From Mycolicibacterium aubagnense (GTDB lineage: Bacteria > Actinomycetota > Actinomycetes > Mycobacteriales > Mycobacteriaceae): a stretch of DNA of 64,000 nucleotides. The notes under the pieces were generated by a model that was not told the DNA's origin, made no database searches, and saw only the letters and a list, made by a program, of their open reading frames with translations. Below are positions 20,416 through 56,241 of this stretch, piece after piece. Position 1 is the stretch's first letter. Every line of letters starts with the position of its first letter. The position numbers and the translations under genes are program-made. The stretch lies in NCBI RefSeq assembly GCF_010730955.1, contig NZ_AP022577.1, forward strand, positions 3,782,001-3,846,000, written 5' to 3'.

Positions 20416-20774
20416 GAAAAAAATGTCCTCCCGCGTTTGCCGGTGATGTCCGATCCCACGCAAGGAGACCGTGCTCAGCGCCAGAATTTATGTTGCGAAC
20501 GGCCGGCCTTGTCGCATGGTCAGCAGATCTACTGAACGGCCAGCTCATTCAAGAATGGCCAGTTGATCTTCCGAACGGCCACGGCCAGCTCATCGTCTGC
20601 GGGCCAGTATTACATGTAGGTTGCTGAAGCACGAGGATTACCTGCCGCGGTGCTGGGCGGTCATCGAGGACCGCCCCACCAGGCGTAACGGCGTCCGCAG
20701 AGGTTGCCGGGGTATGTTGATGGCGCCAACAGCGTTGCCGGACCTCACTGTGTCCAAACCTGGGAGGAAAGTCA
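20416..20774. promoter_or_regulatory. divergent promoter region between pks and papA3
   Basis: This 359-bp region must contain the promoters for the minus-strand pks and the plus-strand papA3-mmpL10-PE operon. Visible elements are the pks ribosome binding site (complement of about 20425-20432), the papA3 ribosome binding site GGGAGGAA at 20762-20769, and a phased repeat array at 20497-20593 listed separately. I cannot fix -10/-35 hexamers with confidence. No gene is supported here. Confidence 0.6.
20497..20593. repeat. five phased ~20-bp degenerate direct repeats, candidate operator array
   Basis: GAACGGCC occurs at 20497, 20534 and 20573, with variants GAATGGCC at 20553 and GCATGGTC at 20514. 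Start-to-start spacing is 17, 20, 19 and 20 bp, close to two DNA helical turns. Similarity extends past the core: GGCCAGCTCAT follows in the third copy, GGCCAGTTGAT in the fourth, and a displaced GGCCAGCTCAT ends the fifth. Equal-phase copies in a divergent promoter are typical of cooperative regulator binding. No regulator gene lies next to it and the protein that binds is unknown. Confidence 0.6.
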
Positions 20775-25196: not shown

Positions 25197-26344
25197 ACAA
25201 GCTACTTGCCCGCTCGATGGCTATCGCCACCACGCTGTTGACCGTCGGTGCCGGCGGGCCGCTCGCGGATTGGGTTGCGACGGCCGACGAGCCGTCGGCC
25301 GGTTCCGGGTCCGGCGACACGATTGTCCCGGCCATCCCACCGATCGGTACGCCCGGCCGCGGCTACGCCCTCGGCGGCGCGCACGTCATGGGCATTCCCT
25401 ACGACGAATACATCCGTCGTACCGGCGCCGACTGGTTCCCCGGCCTCAAGCGCGAGATCGTCGACTACCCCGCCGGCCAGGTGCAGGGCCACGTGCTCGG
25501 TGGCATCCCGGGCATCGAGGAACTGCACGAGAAGATGCCGGAAATCGGCTTGAACGGCCCGAGCATCGGCGAGTCCGTCGACATCGGACAGGACAACGTC
25601 CTGCGCCGGGTCCGTGACGGCGGCCCGGGCACCGTGATCGGCCTGTCCGAAGGCGCGATGGTCCTGCACGCCGTGCAGGACCGGCTGGCCTATGACCCGG
25701 CCGCGCCGGCGCCCAACGAGCTGTCATTCGCGACCTACGGTGACCCGCTCGCGATCAACCCGTGGACCGAGAGCTTCCTGCGGCAGAACTTCCCGGTGGG
25801 CAGCACGGTCCCGGCGCTCGACTTCCGGATGCCGCCGGTGGTCGACAGTCAGTACAACACTTACCAATTCATCTCCGCATACGACAGCATCGCCGACTGG
25901 CCCGACCGCCCGGACAACCTCATGGCGCTGCTGAACGCGGTCGTCGGCCTGGCCACGGGCCACACCGCGGTGGCGTTCACCAACCCGAAGAACGTGCCGC
26001 CGCAGAACATCGTCAAGACCGTCAACTCCCGCGGTGCGACGACCACGACGTACATGATCCCCGAGCAGCACCTGCCGCTCGTCGTGCCGTTCAAGTACCT
26101 CGGCATGTCCGAAGCGGACATGAATCACCTTGACGCCGTGATGAAACCCATGGTGGATGCGGGATATTCGCGCAATGACGACCCGGCGACCGCGCCGATC
26201 ACGGTCGATCCCGTCAACGGCTATGACCCCGCCGCCGCCACCGCCCCGGCCACGCAGGCCGCCTTCGGTGGTGCTGCCGACCCGGCCTCGCAGTTGATGT
26301 CGGGCATCAACTACGTGCTGAGCCACGGGCCGAGCGCGCACTAG
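25193..26344 (+). CDS. PE-PPE-domain serine acyltransferase of the TPP pathway
   Basis: A 383-residue exported alpha/beta-hydrolase. ATG 25193 is the start: GGGGAG lies 6 nt upstream, and it overlaps the mmpL10 stop by 4 bp. Residues 1-30 form a signal peptide. The nucleophile elbow is GLSEGAMVL (Ser152), as in the PE-PPE (PF08237) family, which includes the MSMEG_0412-type enzyme and Chp proteins. These enzymes act outside the membrane and transfer acyl chains between acylated trehaloses, completing TPP or polyacyltrehalose. A Pro/Ala-rich tail follows from about residue 340. No PE/PPE N-terminal secretion domain is present despite the family name. Confidence 0.85.
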
Positions 26345-26781
26345 GGGTCGGCCGGGCGCGCTCCGGGGTGCGCCGGTGGTGACACGCTGCTGAAGCTGCC
26401 GATCGACGGCCAAAAGACAGGGAATTCCCTGATTCGTCTCGCGGCGAGCCCGCGTCGTGTTTTGCTTCGTCGTGCCATACGTTCAAGGCAACGTCTTCGA
26501 ACCACGTCACGCGAGGAGTCGCTGCGCTGTGTCCCAATCAGCCGACCACCGGGCCCTCCGAACCACGCGCCCGGCCAAGCCAATTCTCAAAGAGTCGCGG
26601 CCTGATCTGTAGCGCCGATGTCACGAGTGAATAGCATGTTATTCCGGAGTGACGATCTGGTTGCCCCTCCGGCACCGACGACGACGTGCTGGGTATATTC
26701 AGCCTACGGACTGTGACGTTCGGCGTCATTTTCGAAAAAGCGTTACCTAAACCACGAATTCACCCTATGGGATATTCATAC
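26345..26781 (+). other. intergenic region upstream of the aryl-starter genes
   Basis: 437 bp without a supported gene. The first 35 bp contain a hairpin listed separately. Composition drops toward the right end, which becomes AT-rich close to the chorismate lyase start. A TATATT hexamer at 26694-26699 could be a -10 element, but I see no matching -35 at 16-18 bp, so the promoter is not fixed. The region separates the PE operon from the following three-gene unit, suggesting that the unit has its own promoter. It is also a likely junction of the inserted block. Confidence 0.45.
26352..26376 (+). terminator. candidate terminator after the papA3-mmpL10-PE operon
   Basis: A GC-rich stem begins 8 bp after the PE-gene stop codon. 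CCGGGCGCGC pairs with GTGCGCCGG around a 6-base loop, giving nine pairs with one bulged G and one G-T pair. There is no U-tract. Its placement and stability support a terminator, but weaker than the one at 9263. Confidence 0.4.
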
Positions 26782-27375
26782 ATGACGGCAGACCTTGACC
26801 ACGAACCCGAACTCGCGGTAGCAGAAATTCGAAAGCTCAATCGCGACCTTCAGATACTTATGGCGACCAATGGCACCCTCACGCGGATTCTGAACGTTCT
26901 GGCCAATGAAGAGATCGCTGTAGAGATCATCAGACAGCAAATTCACAACGTCGCGCCGAGAATGGCAGAGTGTCATGGCTTAGCGAGCGGCCGTGTTCTC
27001 GAGCGCGACATCTTGCTCAAGGGCCGGACTTCCGGGGACGCATTCGTAGCTGCGAAATCGTTGGTAGCCATGGATTTGTTACCCAGCGAGATCATGACAA
27101 GCCTGATGGAGACGGACCGTCCTATTGGGGAGATCATGGCCGGCAGCTGCATCGAGACCTACAAAGAAGAGGCCAAGGTCTGGGCCGGAAAATTACCGAG
27201 TTGGCCCGCGCTCGATGGATATCGGAATTCGCGAGTGGAGACCGTCGCCCGCCGGTATCGCATCATCTGCGGAGGACAACCGGTCATTGTTATCACCGAA
27301 TACATCCTCCGCACGGTATTCGAAGAGTTTCGGGTCCTGAATTCGACGTTTCGAAAAGCTAGCGAATTGGCATGA
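26782..27375 (+). CDS. chorismate pyruvate-lyase (p-hydroxybenzoate synthase), Rv2949c-like
   Basis: A 197-residue protein, nearly the length of M. tuberculosis Rv2949c (199). Shared segments from memory of that protein include [21 protein letters not shown], a central GRVLxRxxxLKGR, SxIETxKEEAKVW and a late ARRYRxIxGGQP followed by VxTExxLR. The enzyme releases p-hydroxybenzoate and pyruvate from chorismate and supplies the aromatic starter of phenolic glycolipids. ATG 26782 gives the expected N-terminus; ATG 26767 and an upstream start at 26686 are possible but would add unmatched residues. I count 50-52% GC in 26821-26880 and 27061-27120, far below its neighbours. It is followed by the fadD22-like gene after 46 bp. 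Confidence 0.9.
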
Positions 27376-27421
27376 GGACATTCTTCAATGGCCGAATTCG
27401 CTGAATTTATTTGTACGGACC

Positions 27422-29611
27422 ATGTCGTCTCGCGGGGTCCGGCGGAGAGCTGAAAACGGTGAATGGGATCTGGTCGTGGTGAATGGAAACCTGGCGGAAC
27501 TACTCGCCCGGCGGGCGTCGGAAGCGGGCTGGTACGACAAGCCCGCCTACTATGCGCCCGAGGTGGTGACTCACGGCCAAGTCCACGACGGCGCCGTGCG
27601 CCTCGGCGAAGTGCTCAGAAGCCGGGGTCTTTCCCGCGAAGATCGCGTCCTGTTGTGTCTTCCGGATTCGCCGGAGCTGGTGCAGCTACTGCTGGCATGT
27701 CTGGCGCGCGGGATCCTGGCATTCCTGGTTAACCCCGATCTCAACCGGGATGACCACGCGTTTCAGGAACGCGACACGGAGCCGGCGCTTGTCGTCACAT
27801 CCGGTCCTCTGTGCGATCGATTCCAACCTTCGGTCGTTGCGGACGTCGCAGAGCTGGTGTCCGAGGCAGCGCGAGTCGGTCCGGGTGACTACATACCGCT
27901 CAGCAGTGACGATCTCGCCTACGCGACGTACACGTCCGGCACCACGGGTGCGCCGAAAGCCGCGCTCCACCGTCACGCAGACCCACTGACTTTTGTCGAG
28001 GGCATGTGCGGGAAGGCGTTACGGCTCACGCGCCGCGACACCGGGCTGTCCAGCGCGCGGATGTATTTTGCGTACGGCCTGGGGAATTCGGTCTGGTTTC
28101 CACTGGCGACCGGTGGTTCCGCGGTCATCGATCCCGTGCCGATCAGCCCGGAGCGGGCCGCCATTCTGAGCGCCCGATTCGAACCATCGGTGCTCTACGG
28201 GGTGCCCAGTTTCTTTGCCAGGGTGGTCGATACCTGCGCTTCCGATTCGTTCCGTTCGCTTCGCTGTGTGGTGACGGCGGGGGAGGCCATGGAGATCGGT
28301 CTCGCCGAACGGGTCACGAGATTCTTCGGCGGCATCCCGATTCTCGACGGAATCGGATCTACCGAGGTCGGACAGACGTTCGTGTCGAATACCGTCGACG
28401 AATGGCGCCCGGGAACGCTGGGAAAAGTCCTAGCGCCCTATGAGATTCGTGTCGTGGGGCCGGATGGCACGACAGCTGCCACCGGGATCGAGGGGGACCT
28501 GTGGGTTAGCGGACCATCGATCGCGCCAGGCTATTGGAATCGTTCTGAACCGGTTGCCGAAAGCGACGGTTGGCTCGAGACGCGGGATCGGGTGGCCATA
28601 GATGACCAGGGGTGGGTTACCTACCAGTGCCGCGCGGACGATACCGAGATCGTCGGCGGGGTCAACGTCGATCCGCGGGAGATCGAACGGCTCGTCATGG
28701 AAGACGACGCGGTGGCTACAGCTGCCGTTGTCGCCGTGAAAGAGTCCACGGGCGCATCGACGTTGCAGGCATTTCTGGTCCCGGCGGCCGACGTCGTCAT
28801 CGACGAACTGACTGTGCGCGACATTCACAAGCGATTGCTCAACGCGCTCTCGGCATTCAAGGTGCCGCACAGATTCGCGATCGTCGAGCGACTCCCCCGA
28901 ACCCCGAACGGGAAACTGCTGCGGCGCGTGCTTCGCATGGAGAGTCCGACGAAACCGATTTGGGACCTCCCGATGACCGAGCCCCAGTTGACCGAGCCCC
29001 ACCTCGACGCGGCCGCGCAGGCGGGTTGCTCGGCGACCGGGCACCCTAACCCGGCGGACGGCGACGTCGGCGAAGTCACGCTCAAGGAGCGGTTGGCCTT
29101 GTTGCAGGAGGAACGGCACCGGCTGGTGGCAGACGCGGTATGCGCGGAGGCCGCGAAGCTGTTGGCCGAGCCAGACCCCCGGTCGGTGGATCGGGATCTG
29201 GCCTTCTCCGAGCTGGGTTTCGACTCGCAGATGACGGTCGAACTGGGCAATCGAGTGGCTGCGCTGACGGGACTGCGACTGCCCGAGACGATCGGGTGGG
29301 ATTGCGGCACGATCTCAGCGCTGGCGCAGTACGTGGAGGCTGCGCTGCCCGGATCGGACCGACGGCCGGAGTCGTCCGCCCCGGCGCATACCGGCGCTGA
29401 CAGCCTTGCGGTGATCGATGGGGAGCTCACGAGGCTCGAAGACCAGGTGTCGAACATCGGGCCCGACGACAAGCGGCGGGTTGCCGATCGGTTGCGTGCC
29501 CTGCTCGACGGCATCACTGCCGGCGAGGACGGGCTGAGCGCGCGGATCAAGGCGGCCGCGACTCCCGACGAGATTTTCCGGCTGATCGATTCCGAGTTCG
29601 GCGAGCCATGA
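27422..29611 (+). CDS. fadD22: p-hydroxybenzoyl-AMP ligase fused to aroyl carrier protein, FadD22-like
   Basis: Up to 729 residues, against about 705 in FadD22. The adenylation domain (about 22-520) has [16 protein letters not shown] as P-loop, [12 protein letters not shown], and the catalytic lysine segment [11 protein letters not shown] near 500. A carrier domain follows, with phosphopantetheine Ser602 in [15 protein letters not shown]-terminal docking-like tail (about 665-729) ends in [16 protein letters not shown]. This order is that of FadD22, which activates p-hydroxybenzoate and holds it as a thioester for Pks15/1. Resemblance to FadD22 begins at NGNLAELLA, so GTG 27476 or 27479 may be the true start; ATG 27422 is the longest frame, and no start has a clear ribosome binding site. 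The next PKS starts 19 bp downstream, implying translational coupling. Confidence 0.9.
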
Positions 29612-29630
29612 AAGAAGAAGGCGACCGATT

Positions 29631-32600
29631 GTGACCACACAAGTTGAGGGCAGCGACACCGAGCGTGACAAGCTCCTCCGCTATCTGAAGAAGACGGTTA
29701 TCGAGCTCGACGAGGCGCGCACGCGGCTGCGCGAACACGAGCAACGCGCGACTGAGCCGGTGGCGGTGGTGGGGATCGGCTGCCGCTTTCCGGGCGGGGT
29801 GAACTCTGCGGAAGACCTGTGGGAGGTCGTTTCGGCGGGGCGGGATCTGGTGACGGACTTCCCGACCGATCGCGGTTGGGACGTGGAGGGTATCTACGAT
29901 CCCGATCCCGACGCGGAGGGCAAGACCTACACCCGCAAGGGCGCGTTCTTGGCGGACGCGAGTGGTTTTGACGCCGGGTTTTTCGGCATCGCTCCCGGCG
30001 AGGTGTTGGCGATGGATCCCCAGCAGCGGTTGATGCTGGAGGTTTCGTGGGAGGCCCTGGAACACGCGGGGATCGACCCGTTGTCGTTGCGGGGGTCGCA
30101 GACCGGAGTCTTCACCGGGATCTTCGCGGCGAGTTACGGCGGCAAACATCAAGGGGCCCTACAGGGCTACGGGTTGACCGGCACGACGGTGAGCGTGGCT
30201 TCGGGGCGGGTTGCCTATGTGCTGGGGCTGGAGGGTCCGGCGGTGTCGTTGGATACGGCGTGCTCGTCGTCGCTGGTGGCGATCCATTCGGCCATCGCGT
30301 CGTTGCGAGCGGGCGAGTGTGAACTGGCGTTGGCCGGCGGGGTGACGGTGCTGGGGGAGCCCTCGATCTTCATCGGGTTCAGTCGGCAGCGTGGGCTGGC
30401 TGCTGACGGGCGTTGCAAGGCGTTTGCCCGGGCGGCCGACGGAACCGGCTGGGGTGAGGGTGCCGGGGTACTGGTGCTCGAGCGGTTGTCGGATGCGCGG
30501 CGGCGGGGGCATTCGGTGCTCGCGGTGGTGCGGGGCAGTGCGATCAATCAGGATGGCGCCTCCAATGGGCTGACCGCGCCCAACGGGCTGGCTCAGCAGC
30601 GGGTCATTCGGGCGGCGTTGGCCAATGCGAGGTTGACCGCAGCCGACGTGGATGTGGTGGAGGGTCACGGGACCGCCACCACGCTGGGCGATCCCATTGA
30701 GGCGCAGGCATTGTTGGCCACGTATGGACAGGACCGTCCGGCGGGCCAGCCGCTGTGGCTGGGCTCCGTCAAGTCCAATATGGGTCACACCCAGGCCGCG
30801 GCGGGGGTGGCCGGGGTGATCAAGATGGTGCAGGCGATGCGTCATGGCATGATGCCGGCGACGTTGCATGTGGATGAGCCTTCCCCGCGCGTGAATTGGG
30901 AAAGCGGCGCGGTGTCGGTGTTGACCGAGGCGCGGGACTGGCCGCTCCATGGGCGTCCACGCCGGGCGGGCGTGTCGTCGTTCGGGATCAGCGGCACCAA
31001 CGCGCACGTGATCATCGAACAAGCTCCCGAGCAGGCAGTGCTCGATGCGAGTGAAATTGCCGGGGCTACAACGGAATTGCCTGCAGTGCCATGGGTTATT
31101 TCGGCTCGCTCGGCGGAGGCGCTGACGGCTCAGGCGGGCCGACTGCTGGCCCGTGTCGAGGCCGACCCGGCGCTGGATCCGGTCGATGTGGGGTACTCCC
31201 TGGCGGGCCGGTCGGTGTTCGAGCATCGGGCTGTGGTGGTGGGTGCGGACCGACCGGCGTTGCTGACGGGGCTCGCGGCGCTGGCCGGCGGTGCCGCGAG
31301 CACGGGCGTGGTGGTCGGGCAAGCGGGGCCGGTGGGCAAGACGGTCGTGGTGTTCCCCGGGCAGGGCTCGCAGCAGCTCGGGATGGGCCGGGAACTGTAC
31401 GGACAGTTACCCGTGTTTGCCGAGGCATTCGATGCGGTGGCCGATGAGCTGGACAAGCACCTGCGATTGCCACTGCGCGAGGTCATCTGGGGTGCCGATT
31501 CGGAACTGCTTGACTCCACTGAGTTTGCCCAGCCTGCACTGTTCGCGCTTGAGGTGGCGCTGTTCGAGGTGATGCTGCGCTCGGGTGTGCAGCCGGACTT
31601 CGTGATGGGCCACTCGGTCGGGGAGTTCGCGGCGTCATATGTCGCCGGTGTGTTGACGTTGGCCGACGCGGCAATGCTGATAGCCGCGCGGGGCCGGTTG
31701 ATGCAAGCGTTGCCTGCGGGTGGAGCGATGGTGGCGGTGGCTGCTACCGAAGAAGAAGTCATGCCATTGCTGGACGAGGGCGTCGGCATCGCGGCGATCA
31801 ATGCGCCCAAATCAGTGGTGATCTCTGGTGACCAGGCAACCGCGAGCGCGATCGCCGATCGGTTTGCCGAGCAGGGCCGGCGGGTGCACCGCCTGGCCGT
31901 CTCGCACGCGTTTCATTCGCCGTTGATGGAGCCGATGCTCGAGGAGTTCTCGGCGGTTGCGGCCCGGGTTCACGCGCGCGCGCCGCGAATCGGGTTGGTG
32001 TCGAACGTGACGGGTGAATTGGCAAGCGCCGAAAGCAACTTCGGGTCGTCGCAGTATTGGGTCGAGCATGTCCGCCGGCCGGTTCGCTTTGCCGACAGCG
32101 TGCGTCATCTGCAGGCGGCGGGGGCGACGCATTTCATCGAGGTCGGTCCCGGCAGTGGTCTGACGAGCGCCATCGAGCAGTCGGTGGCCCCGGCCGAGGC
32201 AGTGGTGGTCCCGACGCTGGCCAAGAACCGCCCGGAGGCGGCCTCCGTGCTGGGGGCGCTGGGTCAGTTGTTCACCACCGGCGTGCCGGTCGACTGGTCG
32301 GCGGTTTTCGCCGGCTCGGGTGGGCGGCGGGTCGAGTTGCCGACGTATGCGTTTCAGCGGCGCCGGTTCTGGGACAGGGGTGCGGACGGGCCTACCGATG
32401 TGGCCGGTCTGGGTCTGGGCGGGACTGAGCATGCCCTGCTGGGTGCGGTGGTCCAGCGGCCCGATCTCGGCGGGGTGGTCCTGACTGGCCGGTTGTCGCT
32501 GGCTGATCAGCCGTGGCTGGCCGATCACGTGATCGGCGGGGCGGTGCTGTTCCCAGGGACGGGATTTGTGGAGTTGGCGATCCGCGCCGGTGATGAAGTG

Positions 32601-35600
32601 GGTTGCGGAGTCATCGATGAGTTGGTGCTGGCGGCGCCGCTGGTGATACAGCCGGGTGTGGGCGTGCAGGTGCAGGTGGTCGTCGGGCAGGCCGACGAGT
32701 CCGGGCACCGGTCGGTGACGGTGTACTCCCGAGAAGATCAATCCGAGGACTGGTCGCTCAACGCCGAGGGCAAGCTCGGGGTCGACGCTGCGGATGCCTC
32801 GGTGGACTGGTCGGTGTGGCCACCGCCGGGCGCGGAGAGCGTCGACATCTCGGACGGCTATGCGCAATTGGCGGACCGCGGTTACGCCTACGGCCCGGCG
32901 TTTCAAGGGTTGGTGTCCATCTGGCGGCGCGAGTCGGAGATTTTCGTCGAGGTGGCTGCTCCTACCGGTGCCGGGGTGGCGGTCGACGGGGTCGGGATGC
33001 ATCCCGCGGTGCTGGATGCAGTGCTGCATGCCCTGGGGCTGGCCATCGAGACCAGTGAGACCCGGCTGCCCTTCTGCTGGCGGGGCGTGTCGTTGCACGC
33101 CGCGGGCGCCGGACGCGTGCGAGCCCGGCTGACGTCGGTGGGACCAGACGCGATCTCGATCGACGTGGCTGATACCGAGGGATTGCCGGTTTTGACGGTG
33201 GGCGCATTGGTGACGCGACCGGTGAGCGCCGAGCAGCTCGGCGCTGCTCTTGCCGCGAGCCGCGGTGCACCCGATCAGGGGCCACTGGACGTGATGTGGT
33301 CACCGATATCGTTGAGCCACAATGATATTGATGCGACCAACCCGCCGACGGTGGTCACCTGGCAAGACGTGAACGTCGGCGGCGCAAAGACCGGTGATGC
33401 CGGTGTCGTGGTGTGGGAGTGCGCATCTGCCGGTGCGGACGTGGATGTGGTGGGCTCGGTCTATGCGGCGACCCACGCCGCCCTAGAGGTGTTGCAGTCC
33501 TGGCTCGGCCGCGACCGCGCGGCCACGCTGGTGGTGTTGACCCACGGTGCTGTCGCTTTGCCGGGCGAGGACGTCACCGACCTGGCCGCAGCCGCGGTAT
33601 GGGGCATGGTCCGGTCCGCGCAGAATGAGAGTGGCGGCCGGATCGTGCTGGTCGACACCGACGCCGGCAGCGCGGTAGACGTGGCGATGCTTGCCGCCGC
33701 CGGTGAATCCCAACTGTTGGTGCGCGGCAACATGATTCATGCCGCCCGGCTCTCCCCGGCACCGCCGCTGCTGCCGCTGCCGGCGGGGGAGCCGGCGTGG
33801 CGGTTGGCCGCCGGCGGCGGCGGGACGTTGGAGGATCTGGGGTTGCGGCCCTGCCCGGACGTGCAAGCGCCGCTGCAGCCGGGGCAGGTGCGGGTGGGGG
33901 TGTCCGCCGTGGGCGTCAACTTCCGCGACGTGGTGGTCGCGTTGGGCATGTATCCCGGCGAGGTCCCGCCGCTGGGTGCCGAAGGCGCCGGGGTGGTGCT
34001 CGAGACCGGTCCCGAAGTGACCAGTGTCGCCGTCGGCGACCCGGTGATGGGATTGCTGGGCGGCGCGGGACCGCTGACCGTGGTGCCCCAGGAACTCATC
34101 ACCCGGACGCCGCAGGGCTGGTCGCTGACCGACGCCGCCGCGGTGCCGTTGGTGTTCTTGACGGCTCTGTACGGATTGGCCGATCTGGGCGGGATCCGTC
34201 CCGGGGAATCGCTGCTCGTCCACGCCGGGACCGGTGGCGTGGGCATGGCGGCGGTGCAGTTGGCCCGCCACTGGGGTGTCGAAGTATTCGTCACCGCCAG
34301 CCGCGGCAAATGGGACACGCTGCGCGCCATGGGGTTTGACGACGACCGTATCGGTGATTCCCGGACGTTGGACTTCGAGGACAAGTTCCTGGCAGCCACC
34401 GGCGGCAGGGGCGTTGATGTCGTCCTCAACGCACTGACTGGTGGTTTCGTTGATGCATCGCTTCGCCTACTGGTGCGCGGTGGTCGCTTCCTCGAGATGG
34501 GCAAGACCGATATCCGTGATGCGCAGGAGATCGCCGCCGCCTATCCCGGTGTGATCTATCAGGCGTTTGATCTGTCGGACGCGGGCCCGGCGCGCATGCA
34601 GGAGATGTTGGTCGAGGTACGCGAACTCTTCGACGCCCAGGTGTTGCATCGGCTCCCGGTCACCACCTGGGACGTGCGTTGCGCGCCGGCGGCCCTCCGA
34701 TTCATGAGCCAGGCCCGTCATATCGGCAAAGTGGTCTTGACGATGCCCACTGCGCTCGCCGATGGACTGGCAGGCGGCACGGTGTTGATCACCGGAGCCA
34801 CCGGGATGGTCGGCGCTGTGCTGGCCCGCCACCTGGTCAGCGCGTACGGCGTGCGTCATCTGGTGTTGGCCAGCCGTCGGGGCGATCAGGCCGAGGGCGC
34901 CGCCGAGTTGGCGGCCGAGTTGACCGAGGCCGGCGCCAGGGTACAGGTGGCGGCCTGCGATGTGGCCGATCGCGATGCGGTCACGGCGTTGTTCGCCCAG
35001 CTGTCGCGGGAGTATCCGCCGGTGCGCGGGGTGATTCACGCCGCCGGTGTGCTCGACGACGGAGCGATCACGTCATTGACGCCGGATCGGGTCGATACGG
35101 TGTTGCGCGCCAAGGTGGACGCCGCGTGGAACCTGCACGAGGCCACCCGTGATCTCGATCTGGCGTTGTTCGCGCTGTGCTCCTCGATCGCGGCCACGGT
35201 GGGCGCACCCGGGCAGGGGAACTATTCGGCGGCGAACGCGTTCCTCGACGGGTTGGCCGCGCACCGGCAGGCCGCAGGGCTTCCCGGGATATCGCTGGCG
35301 TGGGGATTGTGGGAACAGGCCAGCGGCATGACCGCGCATCTGAGCAACCGTGACCGGGCCCGGATGAGCCGCAGTGGGCTGGCCCCGATGAGTCCGGGGC
35401 AGGCGCTGGAGCTGCTCGACGCCGCGCTCGCGATTGATCACCCCATGATGGTTGCCACCCGCCTGGACCGCGCCGCGCTGGATGCCCTGGCCCAGAGCGA
35501 CGGTTTACCGGCCCTGTTCAGTGGGCTCGCGCGCCGCCCGCAACGCCGCCGAATCGAGAGCTCCGGTGATGCTGCCCAGTCGAAATCGGCACTGGCGCAA

Positions 35601-38600
35601 CGGCTCAGCGGGCTGACAGCCGGCGAACAACACGAACTACTGGTGGGACTGGTGTGTTTGCAGGCAGCTGAGGTGCTCGGCCTGCCTTCCGCGCAGGACG
35701 TCGACCCCGAGGCTGAATTCCAGACCTTCGGCTTCGACTCGCTGACCGCCGTCGAACTGCGCAACCGTCTCAAAACGGCCACCGGCCTCACGCTGCCGTC
35801 CACGCTGATCTTCGATTACCGAACCGCCGCCGCGCTTGCCGACTATGTGGGACAACAAATCCCGGAAAGTCAGCGTCCCGAACCCGGGCCGGCCGAACCC
35901 GCCGACAAGAACCCCAAGGTATCCGGTCCGGCGGAGTTGACGTCAGGTTTCGCCATCGTCGGCTACGCGGCCCGGTTTCCGGGCGCCGCGGACACCGACG
36001 AATTCTGGCAGATGCTGTGCGAAGGCCGGGATGCGGTTTCGGAGGTACCCGACGACCGATGGGACGTCGATCAGTTCTTCGACCCGGAGCCGGGTGCGCC
36101 CGGAAAGGTCGTAACCCGTCGGGCCGGTCTGGTCGACGACGTCGCGGGCTTCGATGCACCGTTCTTCGGCATGTCGGCGCGCGAGGTCAGGTTGCTGGAC
36201 CCGCAGCATCGACTGCTGCTGGAGACGGCGTGGCGGGCGGTGGAGCATTCGGGCACCGCGCCGACATCCTTGGCCAACACCAGCACCGGCGTATTCGTCG
36301 GCTTGTCCACCCACGACTTTCTGGGTATGGCATTCAGCGAGCTGAATTACGACGAGGTCGAGGCCTATTTGGGCATCGGGACTTCGAACGCCGCGGCAGC
36401 AGGCCGGATCAGCCATCGGCTGGGGCTGCAGGGTCCCGCGGTCGCCGTCGACACGGCGTGCAGCTCCTCGCTGGTGGCAATTCACCAGGCATGCCAAGCG
36501 CTCCGCCTGGGGGAGTGTGACCTCGCGCTGGCCGGCGGCGCGAACGTGCTGCTCACTCCGGCGACCATGATCACGTTCTCCAGCGCGCGCATGCTGGCGC
36601 CCGACGGCCGGTGCAAGACTTTCGATGCGGCCGCGGACGGCTATGCGCGCGGCGAGGGTTGCGGCGTCATCGTCATCAAACGGCTCGAGGACGCGATTGC
36701 CGACGGTGACCGGATTCGGGCCGTGATCCGCGGCAGCGCGATCAACCAGGACGGCGCATCGGGGGGCTTGACGGTGCCGAACGGTATTGCCCAGCAACGG
36801 GTTATCGCCGCGGCGCTGAAACGCGCAAACCTCGAACCCGGCGACGTCGGATACCTGGAAGCACATGGCACCGGTACCTCGCTGGGGGATCCGATCGAGG
36901 TCCAGGCCGCGGGGGCGGTGTTCGGCGACGGCCGCGATCCCGATGAGCCGCTGCTGATCGGTTCGGTCAAGACGAACATCGGACATCTGGAAGCAGCGGC
37001 CGGAATCGCCGGTGTCATCAAGGTCATCCTCTCGCTCGAACACGAATTGCTGCCGCAGCACCTGCACTTCGAGAACCCGTCGCCGCACATTCCGTGGGAC
37101 GAGCTTCCGGTGCGGGTTGTCAAGGAGGCCACCGCCTGGGAGCGCAACGGACGCCCACGTATCGCCGGCGTCAGCTCATTCGGGTTCGCAGGGACCAACG
37201 CGCACGTCATCATCGAAGAAGCAACCACGGCCCAGCCCGCGGAGCCGGCTACCGCCGGGGCGCCTCCCAAGTCTGATGTCGGCGCCGGGGCGCCTCCCAA
37301 ATTCAGCCTGCTGCCGCTTTCCGCCCGCACGCCTGCCGCACTGGTGCAGCTCGCCGATCACTACCGCAGCTGGTTGAGCACGCATCCGGAGGCCGACCTC
37401 AAAGATGTGTGCCTCACCGCCGGGGCGGGCCGAGCACACTTCGAGCACCGCGCTGCGTTGGTGGTCAATTCGACCGAGTCGGCCGTCGAGCTGCTCGGTG
37501 CGCTCGCGGATGACCGGCCGGCGCCCGGCCTGAGGCGTGGAGTCTCCGATCGCAAGCCGAAGACGGCGTGGTTGTTCCCCGGACAGGGCAGCCAGTACGC
37601 CGGCATGGCCAAGGAGCTCTATGAGACCGAGCCGGTCTTCGCCGAAACCATGGACCAATGCGCGGTTGCCGTAGCCGATGTACTCGAAAAGCCCTTGCTG
37701 GACGTCATTTTCGATAACGGCCCCGGTGCCGAGGAGACGCTGCGGCAGACCAGCTATGCCCAGCCGGCGATCTTCGCCGTCGAGATGGGACTGGCCCGGC
37801 TCTGGCAGTCGTGGGGTTTGGAACCCGATGTGGTGCTTGGCCACAGCGTCGGCCAATATGCGGCGGCCTGCGTGGCGGGTGTGTTCAGCATCGAGGACGG
37901 AGCGCGGCTGACCGCGGAGCGCGGGCGCCTGTTCGGCAGTTTGCCTGCGGGCGGGCGGATGGCCGCGGTGTTCGCCGCCGCCGAGCGCGTCGAGAGCCTC
38001 ACCGACGAATACCCGAGCCTGTCGGTGGCCGCCTACAACGGTGCAAACACCGTGCTGTCGGGACCTGGAGAGGATCTGGACCGGGCGGTCGCCGCATTGG
38101 CGGCCGATGGCGTGCGGTGTGATTGGCTGGACACCAGCCACGCATTCCACTCGGCGTTGCTGGACCCGGTCCTGGACGAGTTCGGTTCGTATGTCGACCA
38201 GTTCAATTTCCGCCCGCCACAACGCATTCTGGTTTGCAACCGCACCGGCGCCGCGCTCGGCAGTAGCGGGAAACTCGATGGCGCCTACTGGCAGCGTCAT
38301 GCCCGCCAACCGGTCGAATTCGCCAAGAGCGTGCGCACCCTTGCCGACCTCAATTGCAAAGTCCTGCTCGAGGTGGGCCCGCAACCGTTGCTCACCGCCG
38401 CGGCCCTGCGGGCGTGGCCGGACCCGGCCACGTCACCGCAGCCGATCGCGTCGTTGCGTCGAAACACTGCCGATCACCGCCAGATCACCGAAGCCCTCGC
38501 CGATTCCTACGTCGCCGGGCACCTGCCCAACTTCGGCGCAGCCGGTCGGGGACCGGCGAGCAGGCTCGACCTGCCCACCTATCCCTTCGAACGCCGCCAG

Positions 38601-41600
38601 TACTGGTTCCGTGATCCGGCGGCCGGGCCGAGCCGCCACCGTAGGGCGAGGTCCGATGCGGACACCCGCTACGAGATTCGCTGGGAGAAAGTCGCGGCGG
38701 GGCGCCAAGGCGGCGGCGGATCCGCCTGGCTGCTCATCGGTGACGATGCCGAGTTGCTCCAGCCATTGGTCGATGCGCTGACTGCGGGCGGGCACCGGTA
38801 CCGGATTGTCGGGTTGCCGATGTCCGACGCGGAGGCGGACCGTCTCGAAGACGTATTGCGTGCCGCCGGGGCAGACGAACCGGGGTTGCGCATCCTGCAT
38901 GCCGCGGCCCTCGACGCGGAGCGCGCAACCTCGACGTCGTCGGTGCTGCGGATGCAACACCGGGTTCTGGGCGGGACCCGTCGGCTCTTCCGCGCCGCGG
39001 CGGCCGCCGAACTGCGATCGCCCATCTGGCTGGTCACCCGCGGCGCGCAACGAGTCACCGACGCGGACACCGTGTCACCGGATCAGGGTTGCCTGTGGGG
39101 ATTCGGCCGTGCCGCCGCGCTGGAGTATCCCCGACTCTGGGGTGGACTGGTGGATCTGGCGCAGGGGACCGCCGGCGAGTGGGAGCAGTTGATCGATTGG
39201 CTGACGGCGCCGCCACGTGACTCGGCCGTTCGGGAGGATCAGATCGCGCTGCGTGATCACTCGGTCTATCTCCCCCGGCTGGTGCGGCGCACCGGTCAGG
39301 CGAGCGTCACGCCGCTGGAACTACGTTCTGACGCAACGTATCTGGTCAGCGGTGGGCTCGGATCGATAGGCCTGGAGATCGCCGGGTATATGGCCGCCAG
39401 CGGCGCCCGGCATCTGGTGTTGACCAGCCGACGACTCCCCAGCGCTGACACCCAACAGCGCATCGACGCACTGAGCGAGCGGCACAGCTGCGAAATTCGG
39501 GTTATCACCGCCGATGTCGCGGATGCGCATGCCGTTGCACGTCTGCTGATCGCCGTGCAGGCCGAACTCCCGCCGCTGGCCGGCATCATCCACGCCGCGG
39601 GCGAGATCGGCACCACGGTGCTGAGCCAATTGGACGATGCGGAAACCGATCGCGTCTTCGCCGGGAAGGTTTGGGGTGCTTGGCATTTGAGCGAAGCGGC
39701 GGCCGGCCTGAAGCTGGACTTCTTCGTCAGCACCTCGTCGATCGCGTCGGTCTGGGGCGGATTCGGTCAGACCTCCTACGGCGCGGCGAACGCGTTCCTC
39801 GACGGGTTGTCCTGGCGCCTACGCGAGCGGGGCATCCAAGGAATGAGTGTGAACTTCGGCCCTTGGGTGGCGGGCGGGAACGATGACGGAGTGGACGGAA
39901 AGGCGCACGCGGCGGGCATGGCCGATGCGGAATCCCGTGCGCGACTGGACGAACGAGGGATCAAAACGTTGTCGTCCGCTGATGCCCTCGCGGGTCTGGC
40001 CGACGTCATGTCGGCCGCGTCGGCGCAGGGTGTGGTGGCCCGTATCGACTGGGCCCGTTTCCTGCCGCTCTACCAACTGTCGGGCAGGCGGGGGTTCCTG
40101 GCGGAGTTGGAGCGAGAAGTCGCCTCGGAAACGAAGGCAACGGCAGCCGAAGTGACTGTTGCGGCACCGCCACCGACGCAGTCCGGGCAGACGCTGTTCA
40201 TCGAGCGGCTCATGAATGCTCCTGTGCAGCAGCGCAAGAGACTGGTGACCGACCACCTGCGTGACGCGGTGGCAGAGGTGACGCGGCTGGATGCCTCGGA
40301 GATTCGCGAGGATGCCGGGTTCTTCGACCTCGGCATGGATTCGCTGATGGCCGTCGAGCTGCGGCGCCGCATCGAACAGGCGGTGGGCCAGGAGGTACCC
40401 GTCACCCTGGTGATGGACCACCCGCGGCTGTCAGACGCGGCGGACTATCTACTCGGCGACGAGGTACTCGGGCTCGGCGAGGGGCCATCGGCACCGAAAC
40501 GGACGTCAACGACGACCCCCACGGACGAACCGATTGCGATCGTGGCCGTGTCATGCCGTTTCCCCGGTGCACCCGACCCGGAAGCATTCTGGGAGGTGTT
40601 GTCCGGCGGCGTGGACGCAATCCGGGAAGTTCCGGAGGACCGATTCGACATCGACGAGTACTACGACCCGGACCCGGAGACTCCGGGTAAGACCTACACG
40701 CGCTTCGGCGGATTCCTGGACGGCATCGACCGATTCGATCCGGAATTCTTCGGCATCTCCCCGCGTGAGGCCGTGTGGATCGAGCCGCAACAGCGTCTGA
40801 CGCTGGAAACGGCGTGGGAAGGGTTGGAACGCGCGGGGTATTCGCCGGCCTCCTTGCGCGGCAGCCGAACCGGCGTCTTCATGGGGGTGGCGGCCAATGA
40901 GTATGCGCACCTGCTGTCCGCCGAGCCGATCGACAAAATCGAACCGCACTTCATCACTGGCAACGCGCTCAATGCGATCTCCGGTCGGGTCGCGTTCGCA
41001 CTCGGACTCGAAGGGCCGGCAGTAGCGGTCGATACCGCGTGCAGCTCGGCATTGGTGGCTGTCCATCAGGCCTGCCAGGCATTGCGCGGCGGCGACTGCG
41101 ATCTCGCCCTCGCCGGAGGCGTGAACGTCTTGTTGAGCCCGGTATCATTGGTTGCCGCATCCCGGGCCAGGATGCTGTCCCCCGTCGGGCGCTGCAAGAC
41201 CTTCGACGCCTCGGCCGATGGTTACGTCCGCAGTGAAGGCTGCGGCATCCTGGTGCTCAAGCGGCTGAGTGATGCGGTACGTGATGGCGACCAGGTCTGC
41301 GCGGTCATTCCGAGTAGCGCGGTGAACCAGGACGGTGCATCCAGCGGCTTGACGGTGCCCAATGGTGGTGCGCAGCAACGGCTCATCGGGGCAGCACTGG
41401 CTCGGGCCGGGTTGGCCGGCCGCGATATCGACTACCTCGAGGCACATGGCACCGGCACTCCACTGGGTGATCCGATCGAGGTGCAGGCCGCAGCGGCGGC
41501 CTACGGCGGCGCGCGCCAGGCGGACCGGCCGCTGCTCATCGGTTCGGTGAAGTCCAACATTGGCCACACCGAATCTGCCTCCGGCGCAGCAGGTCTGATC

Positions 41601-44600
41601 AAGGTGGTGCTGTCGCTCCAAAATGGCTTGCTGCCGCAGAGCCTGCACTTCGACAACCCGTCGCCGCACATCCCGTGGGACTCGCTACCCGTGCGGGTCG
41701 TCGACAAGGCGGTTCCCTGGCAGGGCAACGGCAGGCCGCGGCGGGCCGGCGTGAGTTCGTTCGGCTTCACCGGTACCAACGCGCATGTGCTGGTCGAAGA
41801 GGCGCCACGACAGCCGGCCGGCCCCGTGGGTGACGTGCCGGACAGCGGTGTACCGGAGAGCACGGACACGCACGAACAGCCCTCCGACGTGCTGGCGCTT
41901 TCCGCGCGGTCGCCGGAAGCACTCGCGGCGGTGGCGCAACGCTATGAGGCCTGGCTGCGCGACCACCCCGACACCAGCCTGGCCGACCTGTGCCGCACCG
42001 CCGGAACGGGCCGGACGCACTTCGAACATCGCGCCGCGCTCGTCGTGGATTCGGTCGCGAGCGCGCGCGAGGGCCTGGCGGCGTTGGCGGAGAACCGGCT
42101 ACGGCCCGGCGTGGTCCGGGGTGAGCACATCAACCGGCCAACGACGGCGTGGTTGTTCACCGGGCAGGGCAGCCAGTATCCGGGGATGGCGCGTGAATTG
42201 TTCGACGCCGAGCCGGTTTTCGCCGAAACCGTGACACGGTGTGCGGAGGCTGTCGGCGACATGCTGCCGCGGCCGTTGCTGGAGGTACTGTTCGACACCG
42301 ACCGCCAGACCTCGGACACGCTCCGGCACACGTCGTATGCGCAGCCGGCGTTGTTCGCCGTGGAGATGGGCCTGGCCCGGCTGTGGCAGTCGTGGGGCCT
42401 GGCGCCCGACGTGGTCCTGGGACACAGCGTGGGCCAGTACGCGGCGGCCTGCGTGGCCGGCGTGTTCAGCCTCGAGGACGGCGCACGGCTGATGGCCGAA
42501 CGTGGCCGACTGTTCGGCAGCTTGCCCGAGGGCGGGCGAATGGTCGCGGTATTCGCCGACCCCGCTCACGTCGAGGCCGTCGCCGGTGAGTTCCCGCGGG
42601 TCTCGGTGGCGGCATACAACGGTCCCAACACCGTGCTGTCGGGTCCTGGTGCGGAGGTGGAGCAGCTGGTCGACCGGTTCAACGCCGAGGCAATCCGCTG
42701 CACCCCGCTGGAGACCAGCCACGCCTTCCACTCGGAACTGCTGGAGCCGGTGCTCGATGAATTCGAGTCGTACGCAGCACAGTTGCGATTTGCCGCCCCG
42801 ACTTTGCCGCTGATCTGCAACCGCACCGCCGCCGTGCTCACCGCCGAAACGCCTATCGACGCTCGGTACTGGCGGCGGCACTCCCGCCAGCCGGTGCAAT
42901 TCGCGGACAGTGTGCGCACTGCGGCGGCACTGGGATGCACTGTGCTGATGGAGATCGGCCCGCAACCCATATTGACCGCCGCGGCCATGCAGGTCTGGCC
43001 GGAACACCTGAGCGCGCCACGGGCCATCGCCTCGATGAGAAAGGGTGTGAGTGACCGGCGCCAGATCGCCACCGCCCTGGCCTCGGCGTACGTCAGCGGC
43101 CTCAGTCCCGATTTCGCCGCGGTGTACCGCCACGCCGGTCGCCGGCTCGAACTGCCCACCTATCCGTTCCAGCGTCGGCGCTTCTGGCCCAAGACATCCG
43201 GCCTGACCCACGAAGGGGTAGGCGGTCCGACATCCGGAATCCTCGGCAGCGCAAAGGAACTCGCTTCCGGAGACACTGTTTACGTCAGTAGGCTGGGGGT
43301 CAAATCGCAGCCCTGGCTTTCCGATCACGTCATCTACGGCACCGTTGTGGTCCCGGGAGCGACCTACGCCGCGATGGCGCTGGCCGCCGTCGGCGCACCG
43401 GCCCGGGTGAAAGACGTCTTCTTCTACGAGCCGATCATCCTGCCGGACAAGAGTTCTCGCGAAGTGCAACTCACCCTGCATCCTTCCGCGGAAGATGGCC
43501 GATGGAGCTTCCAGGTCCACAGCCGCCCCTATGGCGAACGCGGTGCCGAATGGTCGCTGAACGCCGACGGCACCGTAGTCAGTGGCGCCGAGACCGAATC
43601 GGTCTCCGATCCGGATCTCGGCGAAACCGTCGAGCGACTGGAGCGGCTGCGTCCGCAGGATCTGATCGACACCTTCGCAGACCTGGAACTGGCCTGGGGG
43701 CCCACCTGGTCCACGTCCCTCAAATCGCTTTGGCTCGGTGACGGCGAGGCGATCGGCGACATTCTCGTCGGTGAAGAACTCGCCGAACAACTGGGAGCGG
43801 AGCCGATGCATCCGGTGCTGCTGGACTTGTGCACCGGCGTTGCGTTTCCGGCGTTCCCGGCACTCCTGGCCGCCGAACAGGGCATGAGCGATCTGTTCCT
43901 GCCGTTGCGGTACGGGCAGGTGGAGCTCAAGGAGAAGATGCCGCGGCGTTTCTATTGCCGAGCGCGGTGGCATGCCGGCGCACTCGACAGCGAAACCCAG
44001 GTCTTCGATCTCGATTTCGTCGATCGGGATGGCCGACGCCTGGGCGGGATCAGCGAGTTCACGGTCAAACGCGCGCCTCGGGAGGCGTTGCTGCGCGGAC
44101 TGGGCGGTGACGCGGCCCGGCTGCTCTACACAGTGGGCTGGCATGAGGTGCCGCCGCCACCGGCTGACGCTCCGGCGGGTCTGAGCGGCACCTGGCTGGT
44201 CGCGGGGTTCGGCGAACTTGCCGCCGAGATGCCCGGCTGCGTCCCGTTCGATCGGGACACCGATCCGGAGCTCCTCGGCCAGGTGCTGGCGACGGCGCAC
44301 GAGCGCGGCGTCGGATTCTCCGGCGTGGTCTGGCGCAGTAATGCGGAAAGCGCTGACGAGCCGACCGCCGAGGCCGCGGCGCGGCTCGAAACGGAGATCG
44401 CCAACCTGCTCAGTGCGGTGCACACGGTGCAGGGCGGCGGCGTGACCCTCCCGAACGGCCTCTGGATCGTCACCGAGCGGGCCGTGGCGGCCGAGTCGGG
44501 CGAACCGGTCGACCCGGTGCAGGCGGCGTTGTGGGGGCTCGGACGCACCGTGATCAACGAGGAGCCCGCGCTGCGCGCCAAGCTCATCGACGTCGACGGA

Positions 44601-46838
44601 TCGCCCGAAGCCGCCGCGGCCGTGGTCAGGTTGTTGGCTGCACCAGTCGACGAGCCCGAACTTGCTGTGCGGCAAGGCAAGCTGTTGGCTTCACGGTTGT
44701 TGCCGCGGGCCCGCAGCGGCCATCTCACGGTGCCGCATGCCACCGACTACGAGTTGGCGCCCAGCGAGCGCGGTGCGATCGACAACCTGCGACTGACCGA
44801 AAAAGAGGTGCTCGCACCGGAGGCCGGCTACGTGCAGGTCCGGGTGGAGGCCGCGGGTCTCAACTTCCGCGATGTGCTCAATGTGCTGGGTCTGTATCCC
44901 GGTGATCCGGGCCCGATCGGCGGCGACTTCGCCGGCGTCGTCACGGCCTTGGGCGCGGACGTCACGGGAGTCGACGTGGGGCAGCGGGTCTACGGCTCGA
45001 TGCAGGGTGCGTTCAGCAGCCGATTCAACGTGCCGGCCCACTTCCTGGCGCCCATACCGGGCGGGGTGAGCGCGGTGGAAGCCGCGACGATCCCCGCCGC
45101 GGCACTCACGGTCCGGCTGTCGTTCGACTGGGCCCGGCTGAAGCCGGGCGACAAGGTGCTGATCCACGCCGCCAGCGGTGGCGTGGGACTGGCGGCCATC
45201 CAGATGGCTCAGCAGCTCGGTGCCGAAGTGTTCGCCACCGCGAGCACGTTCAAGCGTGCGACGCTGCGCAAGCTGGGTGTGCAGCACGTCTATGACTCGC
45301 GCACAACCGATTTCGCCGATCAGATCGTGGCGGATACCGGCGGTGCGGGCGTGGACGTCGTGCTCAACAGTCTGACCAACGAGGGCTTCATCGAGGCGAC
45401 GCTCCGGGCCACCGCCAAGGGCGGCCGCTTCGCCGAGATCGCCAAGCGTGATATCTGGACTCCCGAGCAGATGGCCGCGGCGCGTCCCGACGTCGCCTAC
45501 GAGATCGTCGCGCTGGACACCGTGATGCTCACCGAACCCGAACGCATTCGTGATCTGCTCACCGAGGTGTCACAGGGCTTGACTGCAGCGGACGACTCTT
45601 GGAGCAAGCGCTCGCCGGGCCAGTGGACGCCACTGCCGGCCGAGATATACCCGCTCACCGAGGCGAGGACAGCGTTCCGGCGCATGCAGCAGGCCCGGCA
45701 CACCGGCAAGATCGTGCTGCAGATGCCCAACCCGTTGCAACCGCGGCCCGACCGGAGCTATCTGATCACCGGCGGCCTGGGTGCGATCGGTCTGCACACG
45801 GCGTCGTATCTGGCGGGGCTCGGCGCCGGGGACATCGTGCTGGCCAGTCGGCACGCGCCCGATGCCGAAAAACAAAGGGCGATCGACGACATCACCGAGC
45901 GGTACAAGTGCCGTATCCATGTCTTCACCGCCGATGTCGGGGAGGAGCCGGAGGTGCAGGCCCTACTGGAGCGCATCCGGGCGGAGGTGACGCCATTGGC
46001 TGGTGTGGTGCATCTGGCCGGCGTGCTCGATGACGCGCTGCTCGGTCAGCAGGAACTCGAAAAGTTCCGGATGACGTTGGCGCCCAAGGCATACGGTGCT
46101 TACCACCTCCACCGGCTGACCAAGAACGACGAACTGGACGTCTTCATCGTGTCCTCGTCGGTGTCGGCGCTGTTCGGCCCACCGGGCCAGGCCAACTACG
46201 CGACCGCCAATGCGCTGCTCGACGGCCTGGTCGCCCACCGCAGGGCACAGGGGCTGCCGGCCACCGGAGTCAACTTCGGCCCGTGGGCGCGGGGCGGCAT
46301 GGCCGCGTCGGCGGCTGCGGCGTCCAACATCAGCGCGCAGGGACTGATACCGATGGACCCATCGGCAGCACTCGGCGCGCTGGCGGAGGCCATCGCCAAC
46401 GGAACCGGTCAGGCTGCCGTCGTCAAGGCCAATTGGCAGCGTGCCGCGAAGGTGCTGGGCAGCTCGCGCCCGCCCATCCTGGAGCTGGTGCTGCCGAGCC
46501 CCGCTTCGGATGCTGTCAGCGACAGCGAATTGCTCAAGCAGCTGATGGAGATTCCGGTGCCGCAGCGGACCGGTTTCGTCGCAGAGTTCCTCCAGCGCGA
46601 GGTGCAGAACTTCCTGCGACTGGCGCAGCCGCCGGCCACCACCAGCCGGTTCCTGGACCTGGGCACCGACTCGTTGATGGCGGTCGAGCTTCGCAACCGG
46701 CTGCACAGTCAATTCGGCGGCAAGTTCTCCATCAACGCGACCGCGGTATTCGACTACCCGACCATCGGAGAGCTCGCCGAGTACCTGGCCGGTCAGCTGC
46801 CCGATTCGGAATCGGCCGTCGCCCCGGAGCCGAGTTGA
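29631..46838 (+). CDS. trimodular PKS: Pks15/1-like module fused to two polyphleate-type modules
   Basis: A 5735-residue protein starting at GTG 29631, with GAAGAAGG upstream. An N-terminal docking helix (about 8-38) precedes module 1: KS (42-460, Cys211), AT (570-870, Ser662), DH (933-1200, His966, Asp1129), ER (1397-1710), KR (1714-1965) and ACP (Ser2037). This matches Pks15/1 in length, order and sequence style. A linker at about 2080-2104 leads to module 2: KS (Cys2277), AT (Ser2739), KR (site about 3239, Tyr3383), ACP (Ser3571), without DH. Module 3: KS (Cys3804), AT (Ser4266), DH (His4566), ER (5054-5367), KR (Tyr5523), ACP (Ser5681). There is no thioesterase. Modules 2-3 reproduce the domain order and much of the sequence of the PKS at 9322-20415. 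All three ATs carry HAFH (malonyl-CoA). The inferred product is a p-hydroxyphenyl-primed chain extended by polyphleate-type C4 units; whether module 1 iterates as Pks15/1 does is unknown. Confidence 0.9.
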
Positions 46839-46847
46839 TGCGCCCGC

Positions 46848-47489
46848 CTACACCCCGAGTGCGCCGGCTGCGACCAGTACCGCTCCGACCACCGCCAGCA
46901 GCGCAGCGACTTCGTGGCGCCGGCGGGCGCGAATCCAGTTGTTCAGCAACGCCATTCCCTCGCGGGTACGTTGCGGCGCAATCAGGTAGGCGAGCAGCGG
47001 CACTTCCACCAAGGAGAACGCCACCACGTTGAATGTCACCAGGGCGCCCATCCGGACGTCGGCCTCGACGCGTGCGGCGGCGATCACGGCCAGCGCGGCC
47101 AGGTAGTCGACCGACGGCAGCGCGATGCCGAGGCCCGCGACGCCCGCAACCCACAGCGACCGGCCGGTGAGTAGCCGGGTCAGCCAGTCCGGTACCTGGC
47201 GGTCACGCCGCTTCGTGACGGCCAGGAGCGCCGCCGCCACCAACGCCAGCACCCCGATGACGACCTGCACCGTCGGCAGGTTGAAATGCGCCGACGCCCA
47301 AGGGGGAAGCCTGGATTCGAGGACGAACAGCACCACCGCACCGACGGACAGGCCCATCAGGAAACCGCCGCACAGGAACGCGGCCAACTGCAGCTGCGGG
47401 CGCGGCCGGTTCAGCATGACGACGGACATGCCGATGCGGAACGGCTCCAGGCTGACCGCGACCGCCATCACCAGCAGGGTGATCCACAT
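46848..47489 (-). CDS. Gap/Sap family membrane protein (glycolipid-addressing protein)
   Basis: A 213-residue integral membrane protein with about six hydrophobic segments and little soluble sequence; a basic stretch (KRRDRQ) lies between helices in the middle. It matches the Sap/GAP family: small mycobacterial membrane proteins encoded next to mmpL lipid-export genes and needed for surface display of sulfolipid or glycopeptidolipid. It is convergent with the trimodular PKS (9 bp between stops) and lies 9 bp downstream of the FadD23-like gene on the same strand, so those two form one transcript. It probably aids export of TPP-type lipids. Confidence 0.8.
   Translation of the reverse strand: MWITLLVMAVAVSLEPFRIGMSVVMLNRPRPQLQLAAFLCGGFLMGLSVGAVVLFVLESRLPPWASAHFNLPTVQVVIGVLALVAAALLAVTKRRDRQVPDWLTRLLTGRSLWVAGVAGLGIALPSVDYLAALAVIAAARVEADVRMGALVTFNVVAFSLVEVPLLAYLIAPQRTREGMALLNNWIRARRRHEVAALLAVVGAVLVAAGALGV

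Positions 47490-52952: not shown

Positions 52953-56241
<3,289 letters not shown>

Follow-up and report, generated by a model that had tools for sequence, protein, structure and literature searches.

Which lipid is made when relatives of the genes that start phenolic glycolipids (PGL) stand inside a locus for trehalose polyphleates (TPP)? The question is raised by a stretch of 64,000 nucleotides from Mycolicibacterium aubagnense (hereafter the window). PGL and TPP have so far been two separately studied mycobacterial surface lipids. In PGL synthesis, the growing chain is released and reloaded through FadD29. Phleic chains, whose repeating unit is -CH=CH-CH2-CH2-, normally begin from fatty acids.

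According to passages of PMC10949201, FadD22 and Pks15/1 start PGL, a host-modulating surface lipid, from p-hydroxybenzoate. Excerpts of PMC11633156 describe TPP as having 6–7 polyunsaturated phleic acids (C36–C40 in the precursor), with export by MmpL10 and transacylation by PE. In M. smegmatis, pks, mmpL10 and pE mutants are without TPP, and a fadD23 mutant loses TPP only in part (sections of PMC10465359); the supply of starter there is therefore not strict. The therapeutic phages BPs and Muddy need TPP for infection, according to the same sections. No description of an aromatic-starter polyphleate was found among the literature matches listed, as excerpted.

The three-gene block and its surroundings

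The window sits in a 6.06-Mb contig of a 6.32-Mb genome and holds the TPP gene set pks, papA3, mmpL10, pe and fadD23 together. Between pe and sap lies a block of three co-directional genes on the plus strand (26782–46838), encoding an Rv2949c-like chorismate lyase, FadD22 and a polyketide synthase (PKS). It shares its orientation with papA3–mmpL10–pe. The block does not encode an acyltransferase, and the DNA between it and these three genes showed no further one. The features are as follows:

9322..20463, minus strand: bimodular TPP PKS, KS-AT-KR-ACP and KS-AT-DH-ER-KR-ACP (Pfam)
20775..22214, plus strand: acyltransferase in the PapA3 position, named by position, with a condensation domain (PF00668) and orthologues at the same place in relatives
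22221..25196, plus strand: transporter of the MMPL family in the MmpL10 position, named by position
25019..26344, plus strand: PE acyltransferase with a PE-PPE domain (NF041570, 657.4 bits, cut-off 580), matching from residue 65
26345..26781, no strand: left junction, 437 bp, with a terminator-like site at 26440–26459
26782..27375, plus strand: chorismate pyruvate-lyase (CPL), Rv2949c-like, 197 aa, ATG at 26782 and stop at 27375 (PF01947)
27422..29611, plus strand: FadD22, p-hydroxybenzoate-AMP ligase with a carrier domain (NF004716; AMP-binding, AMP-binding_C and PP-binding)
29631–46838, plus strand: three-module PKS, 5735 aa in one open frame
29631..35918, plus strand: PKS module 1, KS-AT-DH-ER-KR-ACP, Pks15/1-like (Pfam, KS tree and head comparison)
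35919..40466, plus strand: PKS module 2, KS-AT-KR-ACP, like module 1 of the TPP PKS (Pfam, identities and trees)
40467..46838, plus strand: PKS module 3, KS-AT-DH-ER-KR-ACP, like module 2 of the TPP PKS (Pfam and identities)
46839..46860, no strand: right junction; PKS stop at 46838, 3' end of sap at 46848, empty-site alignment restarting at 46861
46848..47489, minus strand: Sap-type membrane protein of the sulfolipid-1-addressing family (PF11139)
47499..49211, minus strand: fatty acyl-AMP ligase (FAAL) in the FadD23 position, named by position (NF004509, 867.1 bits, cut-off 775)

The true start of PE probably lies downstream of 25019. Further along the window (54691–56241), a single frame combines a dTDP-rhamnose epimerase domain (RmlC-type) with a reductase domain (RmlD-type); a nucleotidyltransferase lies nearby.

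The preliminary description had read three consecutive co-directional genes here, the last of them for a 5735-aa PKS, and had taken them for an aromatic-starter line inserted in a TPP locus. The gene content is borne out by Pfam, NF004716 and the open frame, the aromatic starter by the FadD22 equivalog and lyase family matches, and the insertion by the TPP genes around the block and the empty site in relatives.

The CPL matches PF01947 with 47.4 bits (cut-off 22, E 2.5e-12; the longer frame was scanned), and its expected product is p-hydroxybenzoate. The start at ATG 26782 agrees with the alignment of relatives (MTAD...), and the longer GTG frame from 26686 does not. Its sole match in the PDB is 2nwi, a hypothetical protein (E 2.6e-10). 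The NCBIfam model of the cyanobacterial lyase gives 29.6 bits, far under its cut-off of 175, and the UbiC family PF04345 has no match anywhere in the source genome. The G+C content of the lyase gene is 54.7%, against 65.8% for the window.

FadD22 passes the NCBI equivalog model NF004716 with 1247.1 bits against a curated cut-off of 1228, and its PP-binding domain is present. Judged by eye across five block and six PGL loci, its adenylation stretches and carrier Ser resemble those of PGL FadD22, and the FadD22 tail and the PKS head are likewise similar. By the general rules of docking between such tails and heads, a docking role would be expected both for the C-terminal tail of FadD22 and for the N-terminal helix of PKS module 1.

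All three ATs of the fused PKS carry GHSxG and HAFH, the latter being a motif of malonyl specificity. The KS Cys/His, first DH, ER and KR motifs and the ACP Ser stand at the expected places in a pattern scan; two KS1 motifs and one KR motif escaped the patterns and were read by eye. A loose pattern for the second DH motif was matched in module 1 and unmatched in module 3 and in module 2 of the TPP PKS. No thioesterase was matched by Pfam in the 5735-aa PKS. Compared with M. iranicum DSM 45541 (G228) or Mycolicibacterium sp. BiH015 (G217), dN/dS is 0.13–0.19 for the modules, 0.26 for FadD22 and 0.18 for the lyase; the block genes are under purifying selection (0.13–0.26 overall).

Empty sites and distribution of the block

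In genome G149, pe and sap flank a clean empty site. On the pe side, 6.7 kb of its DNA, reaching to the end of this gene, match the window at 91.7%; on the sap side, 3.5 kb starting at sap match at 86.4%. The two aligned ends are 64 bp apart in G149, and the window has 26345–46860 there. The block is therefore a difference of ~20.5 kb at this site. G149 may either have lost the block or have lacked it from the start. Six genomes were inspected (G149, G156, G043, G175, G186 and G018), and all have the same TPP gene order without the block, with pe adjoining sap.

The first 396 bp of the left junction are single-copy in the genome, and a scan of 26300–26900 found no promoter. Upstream similarity of the blocks of other genomes to the window starts only at 26739–26782. 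The pe–sap site of the metagenome-assembled genome MAG_CO287 (G333; L125:473-1486) holds a different open frame of at most 338 codons, with short flanking repeats seen by eye.

Of 396 genus genomes, 30 (including that of the window) contain FadD22 (E<=1e-150). In a family-level sample (E<=1e-120), it was found in 3 of 301 genomes, all of this genus, and thus in 1 of 31 genera. PF01947 is matched in 19 of 198 genus genomes, and a TPP-type KS-AT (query: the first KS-AT of the local TPP PKS, E<=1e-250) in 137 of 198.

CPL, fadD22 and the PKS occur together in five genomes. The block with its TPP-type modules is complete in three genomes: that of the window and those of M. iranicum DSM 45541 and BiH015, whose PKS frames measure 5729 and 5735 codons, respectively, from stop to stop. 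The contig of M. iranicum H39 (G142) ends inside module 3, and that of MAG_CO287 ends in module 1, so that the later modules lie outside the sequence. Identities of the DSM 45541, H39 and BiH015 blocks to that of the window are 61–69% for the lyase, 73–75% for FadD22 and 77–83% for the modules.

Linkage of the block to the TPP locus is found in one of the five genomes. In the other four (G142, G228, G217 and G333), block and TPP locus are separate, and the TPP loci are found on other contigs without the block; one flank of the block was covered in G333, and almost only the right flank in G217. A search for the block in other TPP loci thus found it there in none of these four, and in the six TPP loci without a block pe adjoins sap. 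Each of the four genomes holds a close PE relative with papA3-, mmpL10- and TPP-PKS-like genes beside it. The H39 block is preceded by glyoxalase-like and purine-catabolism-type genes, and the DSM 45541 block is followed by EAL-domain, PE-PPE and dehydrogenase genes. A PE-PPE-domain gene ~30% identical to the TPP PE lies downstream of the block at 2.0 kb in G228 (L098:9246-10460) and at 7.3 kb in G217 (L099:14561-15799), with DUF305 and P-type ATPase genes in between in the latter. Its product is a possible partner enzyme.

The source genome also contains a second aromatic-starter unit (C1:2,905,817-2,915,727; L036/L037), in which an Rv2949c-like lyase is followed by a FadD22–PKS fusion in one frame. 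The fusion has 3108 codons and more, the last ~480 aa being without a Pfam match, and the unit is also present in G149. Within ~51 kb of it lie an MmpL10-like gene and a 10,432-aa open frame with weak NRPS-like matches. Six further loci (L044, L049, L051, L052, L054 and L057) have an Rv2949c-like lyase without a FadD22 or Pks15/1 relative (E<=1e-20) within 15.7–20 kb, L051 and L052 being short on one side.

Descent of the modules

The KS tree was built from selected loci and 29 TPP loci, with hits below 85% coverage excluded, and has 71 rows from 73 extracted KS after removal of the duplicates L129 and L048. The module-1 KS of the window and of the four other genomes form one clade (100/99). 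It is nested in a 15-row clade with 10 rows from PGL-type loci (100/98), whose inner branching is weak. The first module is thus Pks15/1-like, as had been proposed.

The preliminary description took the last two modules for copies of the TPP PKS in this locus. Both are of TPP type and share its domain set, but "copy" does not hold. PKS residues 2097–5723 are 70.6% identical to the local TPP PKS. Module 2 is 81.8% (KS) and 84.8% (AT) identical to its module 1, and module 3 is 78.5% (KS), 75.4% (DH) and 76.8% (ER) identical to its module 2, the per-domain identity to this neighbour being 84.8% at most. In the KS tree, the KS of modules 2 and 3 belong to the two TPP KS clades; M. iranicum-type sequences are close to them, and the window's TPP PKS stands apart. 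A position of module 2 as sister of the local TPP PKS was rejected on the KS-AT tree (p-AU 1.3e-6), and an origin of modules 2–3 by duplication of the TPP PKS next to them was rejected from the KS tree and the AU test.

The module-2 KS-AT tree (28 rows, one of them long-branched; hits below 80% coverage or 62% identity dropped) places the window with three other trimodular PKSs (SH-aLRT 97, quick method). In the KS2 part of the KS tree, the window stands beside a group mixing trimodular and ordinary TPP PKSs of the M. iranicum group, and in the KS3 part it joins TPP PKSs of that group (100/97). The fused PKS probably goes back to a single fusion that was then transferred whole, but the trees of KS2 alone and of KS3 give a mixed picture. 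One fusion followed by some recombination between paralogues would fit best. The junction protein search scored 1205 candidates. The rarity of the fused junction is only indicated, because three matches among the 120 listed (P0014, P0017 and P0021) are close relatives over the whole junction, at 82–83%.

Four TPP-type KS-AT matches each were found in G017, G051, G058, G134, G164, G181, G188 and others, which probably means that each has two TPP-type PKS genes, both bimodular. One of the copies in G017, G058 and G134 has a first KS that is nearer to module 2 of the fused PKS than to the local TPP PKS.

Proposed product and biosynthetic route

The three genes may be regarded as one transferable unit for a p-hydroxyphenyl-capped polyphleic acid that is subsequently put on trehalose, a reading from sequence that is moderately probable as a whole. 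The aryl-phleic chain alone, without the trehalose step, can be predicted with considerable confidence. As for the broader idea that aryl trehalose polyphleates form a class of surface lipids intermediate between PGL and TPP, and that transfer of the three-gene cassette has spread it among mycobacteria, the chances are about even.

On the preferred reading, the lyase would cleave chorismate to p-hydroxybenzoate, which FadD22 would adenylate and load onto its own carrier domain. The C-terminal tail of FadD22 would then dock on the head of the PKS. Module 1, a fully reducing Pks15/1 relative, is predicted to extend the aryl starter by saturated C2 units and to hand the chain to modules 2 and 3 within one polypeptide, in place of release and reloading by FadD29. 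Modules 2 and 3 would iteratively add the C4 units of phleic acid, with the aryl starter and module 1 standing in for the fatty starter. Following the general rule of double dehydration, and reasoning from the domain set, the DH of module 3 may dehydrate twice to give a gamma,delta double bond, module 2 being without a DH. Most likely, the TPP machinery (PapA3, MmpL10 and PE) would put the aryl-phleic acid on trehalose, beside or replacing ordinary phleic acids.

Enzyme activities, iteration numbers, double-bond chemistry and transfer to trehalose are what we infer from these genes. The last is the weakest step because the block is linked to the TPP locus in one of five genomes, and two of the others have a PE-PPE gene near the block. 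Since the block lies outside the TPP locus in the other four genomes, it does not need to be linked to it, and the linkage in the window may be a matter of chance.

Alternative explanations

The strongest rival keeps the same aryl-phleic acid and removes it from trehalose. The acid would remain free or pass to another acceptor, such as another glycolipid or the products of the second aromatic-starter region, and the position in the TPP locus would be accidental. The location of the block away from TPP genes in G142, G228, G217 and G333 agrees with this, as do the PE-PPE-domain genes downstream of it in G228 and G217. However, all four genomes hold the close PE relative with its papA3-, mmpL10- and TPP-PKS-like neighbours, and in the window the block is co-oriented with papA3–mmpL10–pe with no other acyltransferase gene in between. 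This rival is considered unlikely, if still to be reckoned with.

Priming of the PKS by a fatty acid through FadD23, with the aromatic genes as unused passengers, is improbable. A FAAL is present in the FadD23 position, and a fatty-acid start is the normal one for phleic chains, but the FadD22 tail and PKS head are similar to PGL pairs, and the three genes are under purifying selection and stay together in five genomes.

A third possibility, that the block is a remnant or feeder of the phenolic glycolipid (phenolphthiocerol) pathway, is very improbable and largely refuted for this genome. It would account for the close relationship of CPL, FadD22 and module 1 to PGL genes. G142:C97, G228:C54 and G217:C9 moreover carry PapA5-like (46–47%) and PpsE-like (56%) genes close together, which suggests a DIM-like locus in M. 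iranicum-type genomes. In the source genome, however, a search for PapA5 scored 22 candidates and gave no match at E<=1e-15, and the PpsE C-terminus has only 27–30% matches, at four NRPS/PKS-like places. The queries came from G160 and were checked by Pfam; the PGL genomes G029 and G074 match them at 70–72% and 78–79%. A PGL/DIM locus in the source genome was rejected on these grounds. The preliminary view that PGL genes are absent and that this is not a PGL locus thus stands, genome-wide for PapA5 and the PpsE C-terminus only. In addition, the PKS continues directly into TPP-type modules, and pe, not a FadD29-like gene, stands before CPL.

An assembly chimera is hardly credible: PKS repeats are prone to misassembly, but the complete trimodular frame recurs in two other assemblies (G228 and G217), and the window lies in the 6.06-Mb contig.

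Comparison with known systems

From this natural fusion of PGL and TPP synthases a new lipid can be predicted, for which a single gene could be deleted and a single precursor fed. It would thereby become possible to study whether phages are affected by the free end of the phleic chain. The fusion is also an example of a type I PKS module grafted before an iterative bimodule.

The block resembles the PGL starter unit (Rv2949c, FadD22 and Pks15/1) in its related lyase, ligase/carrier and first module, in the docking ends and in the order CPL–fadD22–PKS. It differs from that unit in that module 1 is fused to two TPP-type modules, whereas Pks15/1 is a stand-alone single-module enzyme. Unlike in ten PGL-type loci, the CPL of the block is preceded by pe and not by a FadD29-like gene, in a genome without a PapA5 match.

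Modules 2 and 3 share with the TPP PKS of the MSMEG_0408 type the same domain set (KR-only, then DH-ER-KR), at the identity given above for the local enzyme. In contrast to that PKS, the fused enzyme has a Pks15/1-like module in front. Its lineage is distinct from that of the local TPP PKS, so that the window contains an ordinary enzyme of this type besides the fused one. The blocks of M. iranicum DSM 45541 and H39 and of BiH015 consist of the same three genes in the same order and differ from that of the window in lying outside the TPP locus.
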